The notes below the pieces were generated by a model that searched no databases, had not been told where the DNA came from, and saw only the letters and a program-made list of their open reading frames with translations. Shown piece by piece: positions 10,765-17,129 of a DNA stretch of 64,000 nucleotides (positions are counted from its first letter, which is position 1; every line of letters starts with the position of its first letter). The position numbers were made by a program, and so were the translations under genes. Origin of the DNA: Acidobacteriota bacterium (GTDB taxonomy: Bacteria; Acidobacteriota; Terriglobia; Terriglobales; Acidobacteriaceae); assembly GCA_021785495.1 (NCBI GenBank), contig JAJYFB010000002.1, positions 1 through 64,000 of the forward strand, in the 5' to 3' direction.

Positions 10765-10860
10765 CCTGTCCCGGAGGGACGCGACGAGAATAGCCCAGGG
10801 CGGAAGCCCTGGGAAATGATACGCATTTCCTCGTTTGCGCCCCGGAGGGGCGCTGCGAAT
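10765..10860. repeat. Dispersed multi-hairpin repeat, copy 2 (inverted)
   Basis: CTGTCCCGGAGGGACGCGACGAGAATAGCCCAGGGCGGAAGCCCTGGG...GCGCCCCGGAGGGGCGC; reverse complement aligns with the copy at 7334. Confidence 0.8.
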
Positions 10861-11010: not shown

Positions 11011-12054
11011 CTATCGCTCGCCGGCTGTCTGCGGCGTTTGAATCTTCACCAGATTCTGGCCGCCGGGCGCGATCGTGCGCGTTTGCGGAGCGCGCCAGTG
11101 GTCGATGTAGCTGATGCGGTGCACGCAGCCGATGGTGCAGTGCGGCGAGCAGCTTTTGCCGGTCAGGAACTCGCGCTTCACGTCCGCGCGCGCGTACTCG
11201 GCCACGGGAACGCCGGGAAAGCCCCGCTGCTGCGAGCAGTAATGCACCAGTCCATCCTCGCAGACGTAAAGATAGCGCGCGCCGGCGCGGCAGCGCCAGA
11301 CGTTCGGTTGCCCCTGGACGATCGCCTCCTGGAACTGGTCAAACTGCGCGTAGTTCGTCTTCCTGCGATTGGTCATCGCGTGATAGACGCGCGCCTCGTC
11401 CGGCGTGAGCGGCTTCAGTTGCCCGTCGCCGTCATGAATAATGCCGATCGTCGACTCGAAGCCAAGCTCCAGCGCGCGGCGGCCGACGATGAGCGCGTCG
11501 TTCGGATCGCGAATGCCGCCCCCCACCACCGAGTTGATGTTGACGTGGAATTCGGCATTCTCAGCCAGCATCTCCAGGCGTTTGTCGAGCGTCTTCAGCG
11601 ACTTCTTCGATACCTCGTCGGGCTCCAGATTGTCGATGGAAATCTGCATGTGGTCGAGTCCGGCCTCGTTCAGCCGCTCAATCCGCTCGGGATTCAGCAG
11701 AAATCCGTTGGTGATCGTGCCGGCGATGGCGCCCGTCTGCCGGATGCGCCGAACGATGGCGTCCAGATCGGGATGGGTCAGCGGCTCGCCGCCGGAGATG
11801 CCGATCATCGCCGTGCCGAGCCGTCCCAGCGCGTCGATCCGCCGCAGCATCTCGTCGAGAGCGACCGGCTGGCTGACTTTGTCGTATTCGTTGCAATAGG
11901 CGCAGCTCAGGTTGCAGTAGCGCGTGGGCACGATCTGCGCCAGCACCGGGTGCGCGGTCGAGGCCAGCGCGCGGGCGACCATTGCGTACTCGCGCACCTT
12001 CCGTTGGGCGGCAATCCACCGCCCCCTGATTGTCGATCTCCGTGGCGTCCCCAT
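11011..12054 (-). CDS. Radical SAM protein with SPASM/twitch-like C-terminal Cys motif
   Basis: TRYCNLSCAYCNEYD (CxxxCxxC), GISGGEPLTHPDL, C-terminal C-x12-G-x4-C (CRAGARYLYVCEDGLVHYC) and CSPHCTIGC. Confidence 0.9.
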   Translation of the reverse strand: MGTPRRSTIRGRWIAAQRKVREYAMVARALASTAHPVLAQIVPTRYCNLSCAYCNEYDKVSQPVALDEMLRRIDALGRLGTAMIGISGGEPLTHPDLDAIVRRIRQTGAIAGTITNGFLLNPERIERLNEAGLDHMQISIDNLEPDEVSKKSLKTLDKRLEMLAENAEFHVNINSVVGGGIRDPNDALIVGRRALELGFESTIGIIHDGDGQLKPLTPDEARVYHAMTNRRKTNYAQFDQFQEAIVQGQPNVWRCRAGARYLYVCEDGLVHYCSQQRGFPGVPVAEYARADVKREFLTGKSCSPHCTIGCVHRISYIDHWRAPQTRTIAPGGQNLVKIQTPQTAGER

Positions 12055-12304: not shown

Positions 12305-12937
12305 CTATGGACCAGCGACTAGCGGCGAAGGCCGGGAATCTTCCGCGTTCGTCCCTGCCGCGGCGCGACGCCAATCGCGCAGGCCGAGAACGGCCAGGGC
12401 GACCAGCCCGGCGTAGAGCAGCGCGGTCAGGCGCAAATCCTTATAGATGTACTCGCCCACATAAACCATGTCGATGGCGATCCAGAGCCACCAGTTGGCG
12501 AGGTGTTTGCGCGCGCCCCACCAACTGGCGACGAGCGAGTAGCTGGCGAGCGCGGCGTCGAGGTGCGGCAGCGCGGCGCCCATGCGGACGGCGAGCAGCC
12601 CCAGCAAATAGCTGCCCACGGCTCCAGCGGCCACGGCGGCGATCATGCTGGCGCGCGGCAGGGGCGCAACGCGCACCTCGCCCTCTTCGCGCACGCCGCG
12701 CCACCAGTGCCACCAGCCGTAGAATGTGAAGGCGAGGAAAAAAATCTGGAGCAGCGCGTCGGAGTAGAGCCTGGCGCGATAGAAAACGACGAGATAGAGC
12801 AGATCGGAGACCAGCGTCACCGGCCAGCAAATGAGCAGACGTTTCGTGGTCAGCCAGATGCCGAGAACCGTGGTGACGACGCCGGCCAGTTCGAGGCCGT
12901 GCGCGGCAAGATAGGCGACAAAGGCGGTTGTGTTCAT
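12305..12937 (-). CDS. pnuT: PnuC-family transporter, predicted thiamine transporter (PnuT) by operon context
   Basis: MNTTAFVAYLAAHGLELAGVVTTVLGIWLTTKRLLICWPVTLVSDLLYLVVFYRARLYSDALLQIFFLAFTFYGWWHW...NWWLWIAIDMVYVGEYIYKDL; start overlaps the upstream stop (ATGA); downstream of a TPP riboswitch operon. Confidence 0.88.
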   Translation of the reverse strand: MNTTAFVAYLAAHGLELAGVVTTVLGIWLTTKRLLICWPVTLVSDLLYLVVFYRARLYSDALLQIFFLAFTFYGWWHWWRGVREEGEVRVAPLPRASMIAAVAAGAVGSYLLGLLAVRMGAALPHLDAALASYSLVASWWGARKHLANWWLWIAIDMVYVGEYIYKDLRLTALLYAGLVALAVLGLRDWRRAAAGTNAEDSRPSPLVAGP

Positions 12938-14106
12938 CGGCAACTCTCCTTGCGCGCGCGGTCTCCCTGCCGAAGCACGTCGAGCAGCTTGCGTCCGGCC
13001 GCGCAATGAAACCATCGCGCGTGGCCGACGAGCCAGCCGTCGTAAGCCATCGTGGCCCGTGGCTCGGAAGCGAGCGCGCCGAGAAAATAATCGGACTCGG
13101 AGAGCGCGAACTCGGCGTGGCAGAGAGCGGCCATGGGCGCGAGCGCGGCAGCCTCCACCGCCGAGAGCGGGCGGATGGATTCGTAGCCGTCGAGCAGCGC
13201 TTCGAGATGGTCGAAGTGGATGGGAACATCGTCTGGATGCGCGGGATCGTTCACCAGGACAAGCCATTCGACGATGTTGCGCTCGATGGTGTGGGCGAGG
13301 TCGTGGACGGCGTTGGTGCGATCGGCCATGCCAAAGTCGATGGCCGCCGTGGCGCGCGCCTCACGTGTGCGCTCGCTCCAGAAAAGATTGGAAGCGTGCA
13401 GATCGTTGTGCGTCCAGAGCGGGCTGAGCGCGGGCGCGAGCGGTGCAAGCTCGGCGTGAAAGGGCGCGAGAAGTTCGATGGCCTGGGCCGCACAGGCGCG
13501 AAGGGCTTTGTAGCCGGTGAGCGAGGGACGGAGGCTGAGATAACGATCCATCTCTTCGACGGGATTGCCGGCGGCAAAGATGGTGAAGCTGGCCACCAGT
13601 GGACGCGGCTTGCGCGGCGGTGCGGCAAAATCGCGCGCGGCGCAATGCAGGCGGGCGAGCATCTCTCCGGCCGAGCGCGCGTGGGCCGCGGTTTGAAAGG
13701 GCGTCCACGAAATTGCTTCGTCGTAGAGATCGACGCCCGCGGGCGTTTCGTGAACCTCGTAAAGAGAATCGCCGATTGCGATGGCGGTTTCTCCCCGCGC
13801 CGAGGCGAGCACAAGCGGAACCGGAGCGCCATGCGCGTGCAAATGGGCAAGAAATCGGTGCTCTTCAAGCAAGCCCTCGCGGTCGCGCACCGAATGGTGA
13901 TGGCGTTTGACGAAAACCGGTCCGCTGGCCGTGGCGATGACGCCGGCCGCCGAGAAGGGACGCGGACTGACGCTGAGAATGCGCGTGGGAGCGCCCAGCG
14001 CAGGAAAATCGGCAAGGAGGGCGCGCAGCTCGTCCAGCGAGAGCGGCGGCCAGTCGGGGGCCACAAGTGCGCCATCCATGCCGTGTGCGATTGCGGTGGT
14101 TGTCAT
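12934..14106 (-). CDS. APH/choline-kinase-like phosphotransferase, candidate thiamine salvage kinase
   Basis: SPLWTHNDLHASNLFW (HxDxxxxN) and AAIDFGMAD kinase motifs; sits between TPP-riboswitch TonB receptor and pnuT. Confidence 0.82.
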   Translation of the reverse strand: MTTTAIAHGMDGALVAPDWPPLSLDELRALLADFPALGAPTRILSVSPRPFSAAGVIATASGPVFVKRHHHSVRDREGLLEEHRFLAHLHAHGAPVPLVLASARGETAIAIGDSLYEVHETPAGVDLYDEAISWTPFQTAAHARSAGEMLARLHCAARDFAAPPRKPRPLVASFTIFAAGNPVEEMDRYLSLRPSLTGYKALRACAAQAIELLAPFHAELAPLAPALSPLWTHNDLHASNLFWSERTREARATAAIDFGMADRTNAVHDLAHTIERNIVEWLVLVNDPAHPDDVPIHFDHLEALLDGYESIRPLSAVEAAALAPMAALCHAEFALSESDYFLGALASEPRATMAYDGWLVGHARWFHCAAGRKLLDVLRQGDRARKESCR

Positions 14107-14114
14107 TGTGTTCG

Positions 14115-14149
14115 TAGCTTCTAGCTTCTAGCTCCTAGCTTCTAGCTCA
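14115..14149. repeat. Heptamer tandem repeat (TAGCTTC)x5, imperfect
   Basis: tagcttc tagcttc tagctcc tagcttc tagctca directly upstream of the kinase start codon at 14106 (minus strand). Confidence 0.9.
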
Positions 14150-14218
14150 TCGCGCGCCCCCTCCGGGGCGCTTTCGCGAGGCTTTCGAAGTTCGAGGCTA
14201 GCAGCAGGACGCCTCGTC

Positions 14219-16717
14219 TCAAAATCGGTAGTGGGCCGACAGGCGCACGGTTGTGGGCGCGCCCAGCCAGAGAAACATGTCGCCATAGTTGGCGCCGGTG
14301 TCCGACCAGTAGAGCTTGTTGGTGATGTTGTTGGCGTAAATGCGGAAGGTGATGCGGCCCTGGTCGCCGCCAGGCGTATACCGCGCGCCAAGATTCAAAA
14401 GATTGTAAGCGGGCACGCTGACGGAGTCGTCGAAGAGCGCCTCCTTGCGCGAGGTGAAGTTCCAGCCGGGCATCAGGTGCAGCCCGCGAATCCGCGGCAC
14501 GGTGAGATCGGCAAAGAGATCGACGCGCAGGTGCGGCACGTTGATGACCTGCTTGTTGTCGTAGCTGGGCGTGCCGGTATTCGTCGCGATTGCGTTCATG
14601 GCCGTGGCCGAGGCATTCAGGCTCAGCCAGCGCGCGGCCTGCCCCTGGGCGTTCAGTTCGACGCCGTTGTGCGTCTCGCGGCCCTGCTGCTCGAAACAGT
14701 AATCGCCGGGGTTGCCGTTGGGACAGGCGCTGTCGGGGCCCGTGAGCGGTTTCGAGTAGATGAACGGCGCGCGCATGTGGAAGAGCGCCGCGGTGAGCAG
14801 AATGCTCTGCGCGGGTTCGTACTTGGCGCCCACTTCGACTTGGCGCGTGTGGAAGGGGGCGAGAAACTCGTTCGCGTTATCGACCCACCACGGCCCTTGC
14901 ACGCCGAGCGAAAGAATCTCACTGTAATTCGAGTAGAGCGTGAGGTTCTCGATGGGATTGTAGGTAACGGCGTACTGCGGCAGCCAGACAAGATCGTCGT
15001 GAGGAATCGGCTTGGCAAGAACGGAGTCTGGATTGCTCGCCGTGGCGCAGGGATCGCCGGCCGGACCGGGCGTGAGGCTGGTTACGCAGGGAGTTTTGGC
15101 AACGAGAGAATAGTTGTTGTCGCGCAGCGAATCCAGGCGGCCGCTGGCCAGAAGCTGAATGCGGCCGGGAAGATGAACGCGGTCCTGCAGAACGAGCGCG
15201 GATTGATGGCTGTCTTCGTAGAGGCGGCGCGGACCGGCCTTCTGCGCGGTGGATTCGAGCGAGTTCGCGTTGCCCGGGGCCGCGAAGGTGGTCATCGGCT
15301 GGTAGATATTTTCCGCGCCCACATAGGCGTAGACCGCGCCATTCTGCACAACTCCGTTGGGATCGGAGGGGTTTTGCACGGTGAAGTAGCCGGGCATTTG
15401 CACGCTGCGCAGGAAGACATTTCCGCCCGCGACGAGATCCTCGGTGACCGTGCCTGTACGAATGTGGCCGATGAGCATGGCTTCCGCCGAAGAATCGATG
15501 CGCAACTCGCCGGGATTGCGATAGTCGTAGATGCCGTAGCTGCCGTCGGGACAGAAGAAGAACGCTGGAGCGTTCGGCGCGCCGGGGCAGTCCACATTGC
15601 CATTCGCATCGAAGGGCGTTCCGTAGGCGTAGATCACGTTGTCCTGAATCAGCGAGTGGCTGAAGTTGGCTGCGGCGAAGGCGGACCACGCAGGCGAAAA
15701 GCTGCGGTCGAGGCGCGCGTCGGTGTTGAAGGTGTCGTAGGTGTCGGGCGGACCCCAGGGCTGGTCGCCGAGCATGGTCGAGCGGTAGATACGGTGAATC
15801 TCCGGCAGCGCCGCGCCGCCCAGCAGTTGATAGCCCGAGCCGTCGCGCTCGGTCTTGTGCTGGTACTCGAAGTCGCCCTTGAGCGTGGTGGCCGCATCGA
15901 TCTTCCAGTCGGCCGCGCCCGCGCCCACGGCGCGCCATCCCTCGGTGTCGTTCATGTACGGAACGATGCGCTCGCCGGCCAGATTGACGCGCGCGCCCAC
16001 CTGTTTGCGGCTGCCAAAGAGATGGCCGAGATCGGTGGCGCCATAGGCCGCGCCGCGTTCGTCGGTGGCCATGTCGAGAGCGCCGACATTGGCCGGGCGC
16101 TTGGTGACAAAGTTGATGAGGCCGCCGGCGTTGGCCACGCCGCTCTCGACGCCGGCGATGCCCTTCAGAATTTCCACGCTCTCCTTGTTTTCGAGCGGAA
16201 CGTCCTGCTCGCCGGCGATGGTCATGCCGTTGACTTCAAGGCCGGTGGCGAGATCGATGGGAAAACCGCGAATCATGTACCAGCCGTAGTAGCCCACGGC
16301 CACGTAGTCGTCGCCGACCGAGGCGTCGTTGGCCACGACGTCCGAAAGCAGGCGCGTCACCTGGTCCGAGAGCAGGCTGCGTGTGAAGACGCTGACCGAA
16401 AGCGGAGCCTGCTGGATGGGTGCGCCGTCGAGCGTGCCCACGGTGACCGATTGAGGCAGATACGTGTCCGCGGTTTTATCCATCACGACGACCGTGGTGG
16501 TGACCGGCTTCAGTTTTTGCTGCGCGTTCGCGGGCGCTTGCGCAGAGGGCATGGATTGCGCGGGCGCAGGCGTCTGCGCGGCGTGCCCGGATGCAGTCGA
16601 TGGCTGCTGTGCGGTTTGCGCGTACGCAGGGGGCAAGAAAAAAATTCCGGCGAGCAGCGCGGAGAGGATTAGCGAGCGGGAGTTGCGAATCTCTGGGGAG
16701 GTGGTTGCGTGCGTCAT
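14219..16717 (-). CDS. TonB-dependent outer-membrane receptor, predicted thiamine(-phosphate) receptor
   Basis: Signal peptide, plug (YMIRGFPIDLATGLEVNGM...ESVEILKGIAGVESGVANAGGLINFVTKRP), C-terminal RLSAHYRF; start MTHATTSPEIRN at 16717; TPP riboswitch in leader. Confidence 0.9.
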   Translation of the reverse strand: MTHATTSPEIRNSRSLILSALLAGIFFLPPAYAQTAQQPSTASGHAAQTPAPAQSMPSAQAPANAQQKLKPVTTTVVVMDKTADTYLPQSVTVGTLDGAPIQQAPLSVSVFTRSLLSDQVTRLLSDVVANDASVGDDYVAVGYYGWYMIRGFPIDLATGLEVNGMTIAGEQDVPLENKESVEILKGIAGVESGVANAGGLINFVTKRPANVGALDMATDERGAAYGATDLGHLFGSRKQVGARVNLAGERIVPYMNDTEGWRAVGAGAADWKIDAATTLKGDFEYQHKTERDGSGYQLLGGAALPEIHRIYRSTMLGDQPWGPPDTYDTFNTDARLDRSFSPAWSAFAAANFSHSLIQDNVIYAYGTPFDANGNVDCPGAPNAPAFFFCPDGSYGIYDYRNPGELRIDSSAEAMLIGHIRTGTVTEDLVAGGNVFLRSVQMPGYFTVQNPSDPNGVVQNGAVYAYVGAENIYQPMTTFAAPGNANSLESTAQKAGPRRLYEDSHQSALVLQDRVHLPGRIQLLASGRLDSLRDNNYSLVAKTPCVTSLTPGPAGDPCATASNPDSVLAKPIPHDDLVWLPQYAVTYNPIENLTLYSNYSEILSLGVQGPWWVDNANEFLAPFHTRQVEVGAKYEPAQSILLTAALFHMRAPFIYSKPLTGPDSACPNGNPGDYCFEQQGRETHNGVELNAQGQAARWLSLNASATAMNAIATNTGTPSYDNKQVINVPHLRVDLFADLTVPRIRGLHLMPGWNFTSRKEALFDDSVSVPAYNLLNLGARYTPGGDQGRITFRIYANNITNKLYWSDTGANYGDMFLWLGAPTTVRLSAHYRF

Positions 16718-16792
16718 GGGCATCCTTTGCTTCGGAATGGCTGAAACAAAGGCGCATGAGCGGGAGTGGCCGAAGAACGGCCGCTCAAGCCG

Positions 16793-16878
16793 GAGAAAGC
16801 TTCCCACGCCGGTATTATCCGGATCGGGTTCGAGGGTATTTCTCAGCCCCGCGACTGAAGCGGAGCACCCCTGTTTCA
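16793..16878 (-). ncRNA. TPP (THI-box) riboswitch
   Basis: Minus strand reads GAAACAGGGGTGCTCCGCTTCAGTCGCGGGGCTGAGAAATACCCTCGAACCCGATCCGGATAATACCGGCGTGGGAAGCTTTC; contains GGGGTGC, GGCTGAGA, ACCC, GAACC(C)GATCCGGATAATACCGGCGTGGGAA THI-box blocks. Confidence 0.96.
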
Positions 16879-17129
16879 ATAACCTGATTGAAACATTTTT
16901 TTTGAGTGAAGGCAAGCGGGCTTCGAGTCATTGCAGGAAGAAATCAGGCAGAAAGGGCGAATCCCCGGCGGTGCGGGGCGGCTTGCCATTGCCTCCGGTC
17001 CGAGCAGAGGGGCGTGCAGCCGTGGCGAATGGCTGCCGAAAGGATCAGGATAAAACGCGCCTCCGATGGGGCTTTCATCGTGCGATCCGTGCTCTTGCGT
17101 TCGGGATGAACCGGCAGGACACCCTCAGA

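Follow-up and report, generated by a model that had tools for sequence, protein, structure and literature searches.

A predicted thiamine salvage operon with an APH-fold kinase under a TPP riboswitch in Acidobacteriaceae

The window analyzed here is a stretch of 64,000 nucleotides (contig JAJYFB010000002.1 of assembly GCA_021785495.1) from a member of the Acidobacteriaceae whose genome sequence comprises 2.94 Mb and is 98% complete. On its minus strand lie, in this order, a TPP riboswitch and the genes for a TonB-dependent outer-membrane receptor, predicted to be a thiamine receptor (14219..16717), an APH-fold kinase, predicted to convert thiamine to thiamine monophosphate (TMP) (12934..14106) and a PnuC-family inner-membrane permease, predicted to be a PnuT-like thiamine facilitator (12305..12937), whose start overlaps the kinase stop by 4 nucleotides via ATGA. 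A preliminary description of this DNA had read a minus-strand operon here, led by a clear THI-box and consisting of a TonB receptor, a kinase with HNDLHASN and IDFG motifs and a PnuC permease joined to the kinase by the ATGA overlap, and the operon is confirmed as real. A covariance-model search places the THI element, an aptamer with a reduced P3 arm, at 16784-16882 (minus strand), where the whole RF00059 model (1-105) scores 63.0 bits (gathering score 54.3; E 5.4e-10), the sole such match in the host genome. Each protein matches its Pfam family: barrel PF00593 (1.7e-33) and plug PF07715 (5e-9) for the receptor, APH PF01636 (3e-24) for the kinase, in which both motifs are present, and NMN_transporter PF04973 (3.9e-46) for the permease. 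By sequence inspection, the receptor starts at ATG 16717 or at an alternative ATG at 16723; the listed start of the TonB open reading frame at 16915 was rejected as an artifact, as it lies upstream of the aptamer and its frame runs back through the riboswitch.

Genes for radical SAM, DUF1761 and OprB proteins neighbor the operon in the window and do not accompany it in relatives. The radical SAM protein (11011-12054, minus strand, downstream of the operon) belongs to the MoaA/PqqE/HpnH superfamily and scores far under every equivalog cut-off shown. The window also contains, at 10767-10813 of the minus strand, an Acido-Lenti-1 RNA (RF01687; 40.4 bits vs. 37), from a family of small RNAs without a known function.

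Directly 5' of the receptor start codon, a predicted expression-platform hairpin (16724..16752, minus strand) is conserved in the leaders examined: an arm resembling CUCCUUUGUUUC, which in the window reads CCUUUGUUUC (16743-16752), pairs with the Shine-Dalgarno (SD) arm GAAGCAAAGG (16724-16733). Paired cells of the hairpin amount to 94%, vs. 92% in shuffles, none of 500 of which reach 94%, and compensatory cells to 11, vs. 6.5 in shuffles, 14 of 500 of which reach 11; formal covariation support for the SD-hiding hairpin is only moderate. A second possible partner of the anti-SD arm is the complementary 5' strand of the aptamer, UGAAACAGGGG, with a mean of -12.7 kcal/mol vs. -5.8 kcal/mol for shuffles in 56 leaders, the complementarity in single leaders other than that of the window sometimes being not beyond shuffles. 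In the window leader the two pairings are of equal strength (-11.5 and -11.6 kcal/mol). No terminator-like site was found for the window operon, and intrinsic-terminator control was rejected for it, the SD-hiding hairpin by contrast being conserved.

The hairpin and the alternative pairing suggest translational OFF control, and we predict that the leader binds TPP and acts in the following way. Plentiful TPP would bind the aptamer and lock its 5' strand and P1; the anti-SD arm could then mask the ribosome-binding site of the receptor, whose translation would fall, while without TPP the nascent aptamer 5' strand would capture the anti-SD arm. Translation of the kinase and the permease would probably be coupled to that of the receptor. 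Since equilibrium folding of the window leader favors the hidden state of the SD whether or not ligand is present, such a switch could only work kinetically, during transcription.

The same arrangement is found in many relatives. Among 100 genomes of the order that were surveyed for gene content, the kinase is present in 11, all of which are among the 15 genomes with RF00059. The riboswitch-receptor-kinase-permease order is kept in 10 of these 11; in the remaining one, G075, one contig has the receptor behind the riboswitch and another has the kinase and permease together. A scan of 85,462 species genomes yielded 80 loci that were kept, a few of which are the same records as surveyed genomes. 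The preliminary description had pointed to genome context as a check, and the permease adjoins the kinase in 77 of the 80 loci, with a TonB receptor upstream in 74. A TPP element is present in 55 of the 58 loci that contain the receptor 5' end, so that the receptor orthologs lie behind TPP riboswitches in relatives rather than lacking them beside iron genes, and the ATGA or GTGA overlap between kinase and permease recurs in 55 of 62 loci. As gene order and riboswitch thus recur in dozens of species, together with the 4-nucleotide overlap, the operon is far beyond chance. Apparent kinase-permease fusions in loci L151 and L158 were rejected, since their open frames cross stretches of N. In L082 (8605-9582) and L168 (8750-9718), acidobacterial kinase-permease pairs that are divergent and have no receptor next to them have in common a downstream open reading frame that starts near IKEFIKHHYRHFNAA.

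Homologs of the kinase with 34-48% identity are also found on 35 plasmid records, and kinase, TonB receptor and permease are all present in each of the 10 proteobacterial plasmid loci opened and in Azospirillum sp. B4. Three gene orders occur: sphingomonads and Azospirillum have receptor-kinase-permease, Acinetobacter has kinase-receptor-permease and Burkholderia has receptor-permease-kinase. RF00059 is present in four of five sphingomonad loci (66-72 bits), in which the receptor has no significant match to that of the window, i.e., it represents another TonB lineage. That the three genes recur together although their order varies and the receptor lineage differs speaks for a functional unit. 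No TPP element was detectable in the Acinetobacter, Burkholderia and Azospirillum loci, and no iron genes were found nearby in the three annotated loci among them. The Acinetobacter plasmid cassettes L183, L187 and L197, all in kinase-receptor-permease order, have a GntR regulator gene upstream, and in L187 the cassette is followed by a gene for an e(P4)-type acid phosphatase that may remove phosphate from TMP or TPP on the outer side of the inner membrane. The e(P4) phosphatase is a partner of PnuC in Haemophilus. On a Novosphingobium plasmid (L184, 57-112), a sul1 RNA (RF03058, 76 bits) precedes a gene for a SulP-family transporter beside arsenic genes.

The preliminary description had expected that the receptor would probably be mis-annotated as iron-related. 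The receptor does exceed the NCBI siderophore-receptor cut-off (TIGR01783, 254.6 vs. 223.5 bits), its nearest solved structures are FemA and BauA, and the plasmid homologs of the three proteins are annotated as TonB-dependent siderophore receptor, nicotinamide riboside transporter PnuC and phosphotransferase. The operon context and the riboswitch argue against a ferric siderophore as its cargo. A misleading name is likely for the permease as well, which passes the cut-off of the NCBI nicotinamide riboside transporter model (TIGR01528 PnuC) and whose structural model has the PnuC/SemiSWEET-like membrane fold (TM 0.72 to the PnuC structure 4qtn). The cargo of a Pnu protein is nicotinamide riboside, thiamine or riboflavin and can be predicted from the class of riboswitch ahead of its gene (PMC7749635). 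The permease gene of the window is the third behind a TPP riboswitch and overlaps the kinase gene, as is repeated in related loci, and we predict from this context that it encodes a PnuT-like thiamine facilitator.

The kinase is 390 amino acids long, with K67, H233, D235, N240 and D257 as its key residues. Its AlphaFold2 model (pLDDT 91.6) has as its best PDB matches homoserine kinase 2ppq, YihE, aminopropanol kinase and other APH-fold enzymes. ThrB2-type homoserine kinase and YihE/SrkA are the nearest matches in both sequence and structure, but the window kinase reaches only 60 bits against the ThrB2 equivalog cut-off of 271, and its context is unrelated to threonine synthesis. As in ThiK-type enzymes, the APH fold carries a catalytic HxDxxxxN motif and a metal-binding Asp, and the active site is intact: K67, E82, H233, D235, N240, D257 and G259 are invariant in 40 kinase sequences from Acidobacteriota and Proteobacteria. 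The kinase has no match at E 0.001 to the ThiK equivalogs TIGR02721 and PRK10271, to which E. coli ThiK itself scores 338 and 554 bits, respectively, and in profile comparison its alignment with E. coli ThiK is limited to the HxDxxxxN catalytic-loop region. It is not an ortholog of E. coli ThiK, and these profiles indicate that it belongs to a distinct enzyme family.

E. coli ThiK makes TMP from thiamine, and ThiL then completes TPP. APH-fold enzymes transfer one phosphate, and pyrophosphoryl transfer is not known for this fold. As the APH fold belongs to monophosphoryl transferases, TMP would be the expected product of the window kinase, and by analogy the likelier function is that of a thiamine (mono)kinase whose product is passed on to ThiL. 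The proposed family of thiamine-phosphorylating enzymes falls outside the ThiK and thiamine pyrophosphokinase models used, and its members are now generically annotated as phosphotransferases.

The strongest evidence for the thiamine reading, which the preliminary description missed, is the loss of de novo thiamine synthesis. Full-length thiG is found in one of the 11 kinase genomes and in 13 of 13 others, and full-length thiD follows the same split. For thiC, the counts are one of 11 vs. 18 of 19 (Fisher 3.8e-6), a test that ignores kinship, nine of the 11 kinase genomes belonging to one genus so that the counts are not phylogenetically independent. The thiM gene is absent from every kinase genome and was found only in G012. 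In all, 10 of the 11 kinase genomes are without thiC, thiG, thiD and thiM, the exception being G001, where the operon is present and thiC, thiG and thiD are kept. The catalytic domain of thiamine pyrophosphokinase (PF04263) was detected in none of the 100 genomes of the order, including the host, while seven of 14 control genomes match. ThiL, by comparison, is over its cut-off in 99 of the 100 genomes and in 10 of the 11 kinase genomes, host included.

Genomes without the cassette present the reverse picture. G093, of the same genus, lacks the kinase and the permease, and its TPP riboswitch lies in front of thiC on a contig that also holds thiG, thiE and thiD (L084). The contrast is repeated in another genus, where G062 has a riboswitch-thiC locus, likewise with thiG, thiE and thiD on one contig (L087), and its sister G075 has the uptake cassette without thiC. 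In both genera the remaining species surveyed carry the uptake cassette. These contrasts indicate that the riboswitch controls either synthesis or uptake and that the cassette accompanies the loss of synthesis; the two riboswitch-thiC loci look as if uptake had taken the place of synthesis, or synthesis that of uptake. A ThiE/TenI homolog with recognizable motifs is kept in the genus despite the lost thiC, thiG, thiD and thiM (G000 contig C120, 12450-12962; L178, L179 and L180). It has no obvious substrate in the predicted auxotrophs, and G093 has it alongside another ThiE, encoded on the riboswitch-thiC contig.

As these genomes lack the means to supply HMP-PP or thiazole phosphate, the only TMP available to ThiL is that made by phosphorylating imported thiamine, and the operon holds a kinase. 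Although this core argument, in which imported thiamine phosphorylated by the operon kinase would feed ThiL, is an inference, it is a tight one. We propose that thiamine would cross the outer membrane by way of the TonB receptor, that the PnuT-like permease would let it equilibrate across the inner membrane, that the APH-fold kinase would phosphorylate it to TMP and thereby trap it, and that ThiL, encoded elsewhere, would make TPP from TMP. Thiamine auxotrophy is predicted from the absence of genes in mostly draft genomes. The thiamine reading of the operon is strongly supported by these comparisons, and it is, in our judgment, highly probable that this riboswitch-led operon serves thiamine salvage in a host auxotrophic for thiamine. 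Counting against this reading are the full operon in G002 without detected ThiL, the synthesis genes kept in G001, the persisting ThiE homolog and the Acinetobacter, Burkholderia and Azospirillum cassettes in which no TPP element was detectable. The uptake and trapping locus analogous to that of Bacteroidetes, which the preliminary description had proposed, agrees with the riboswitch in 55 of 58 loci and with the lost synthesis genes.

That description had further supposed that the APH-like kinase replaces a pyrophosphokinase, a part that is probably incorrect. Were the kinase a true pyrophosphokinase making TPP directly from thiamine, the operon would be self-sufficient without ThiL, and in favor of this are the position of the kinase in the slot of the Bacteroidetes pyrophosphokinase (PMC5613172), the absence of PF04263 throughout the order and genome G002, the only one of the 100 without ThiL over the cut-off despite a full uptake operon. 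Although G002 is estimated to be 100% complete (in about 100 contigs), ThiL was not detected in it even with the protein of a congener as the query, so that TMP could not be carried on to TPP in this genome, unless thiL is absent from the assembly only; an assembly gap is the simplest explanation. The fold and nearest structures of the kinase are those of monophosphoryl transferases, and ThiL, which would be needless beside a pyrophosphokinase, is kept in 10 of the 11 kinase genomes including the host. Direct synthesis of TPP is consequently quite unlikely. If true, however, it would make the cassette a self-sufficient, plasmid-portable unit for acquiring vitamin B1 with which a host could lose ThiL as well as de novo synthesis, G002 then being an example.

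We consider it very unlikely that the cargo is a precursor or breakdown product of thiamine, namely HMP or hydroxyethylthiazole, with the kinase replacing ThiD or ThiM and the retained ThiE homolog making TMP. The ThiE-like protein kept in genomes that lack thiC, thiG and thiD would fit such a route, but with thiM absent too both halves of the molecule would have to be imported and activated by one kinase, and while thiamine has known carriers of the Pnu type, none are known for HMP or thiazole (PMC7749635). That the annotated names are correct, i.e., that a siderophore receptor, a nicotinamide riboside permease and a nucleoside-type kinase are only incidentally under thiamine control, agrees with the TIGR01783 and TIGR01528 scores and with the phosphatase gene behind one Acinetobacter cassette, but is extremely unlikely in view of the TPP riboswitches in 55 of 58 acidobacterial and four of five sphingomonad loci, the co-occurrence of the cassette with the loss of thiamine synthesis and the two receptor lineages in the same slot.

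Under the thiamine salvage reading, proteins now named siderophore receptor and nicotinamide riboside transporter would be reassigned to vitamin B1. The host genus (Acidobacteriaceae) includes Terracidiphilus gabretensis S55, a species that was moved to Occallatibacter by a 2026 paper (PMC12935467), and most of the Terracidiphilus/Occallatibacter clade of soil acidobacteria is predicted to be unable to make thiamine and to rely on its neighbors, which would bear on the cultivation of soil acidobacteria and on community cross-feeding. The cultures described in two papers were grown with vitamin or yeast-extract supplements, which speaks neither for nor against auxotrophy (PMC12935467, PMC6252331). 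In one lichen metagenome study, whose MAGs included Acidobacteriaceae, no bacterial MAG analyzed had a complete thiamine pathway (PMC11542873).

Parts of the system have known counterparts. E. coli ThiK (YcfN) shares with the window kinase the APH/choline-kinase superfamily and the predicted thiamine-to-TMP step that ThiL finishes, but it is 274 amino acids long vs. 390, and the window kinase is riboswitch-controlled and encoded with transporters. PnuT of Shewanella woodyi (Jaehme 2018, as cited in PMC7749635) has the PnuC-type fold in common with the permease, for which the thiamine assignment comes from the riboswitch context. In the available passages of an earlier survey, predicted thiamin TonB receptors fall into several unrelated clusters, including siderophore-type receptors co-localized with pnuT like that of the window, and are assigned by the neighboring pnuT, an assignment that the survey itself calls unproven; linkage to an APH kinase does not appear in those passages (PMC2771747). 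No earlier description of the APH-kinase variant was found in the open-access literature searched, which leaves out most subscription journals, so that priority is not established. The closest system is the OMthi-pnuT-tnr3 operon of Bacteroidetes, which likewise combines a TPP riboswitch, a TonB receptor, a Pnu permease and a thiamine-phosphorylating enzyme (PMC5613172). That enzyme is a pyrophosphokinase, whereas the window operon, in a different phylum, encodes a PF01636 APH-fold kinase, and B. thetaiotaomicron keeps de novo thiamine synthesis, whereas the window host is without it (PMC5613172). The TonB-PnuT-kinase type of salvage operon is thus known, and the new part would be the APH-fold family of predicted thiamine kinases.
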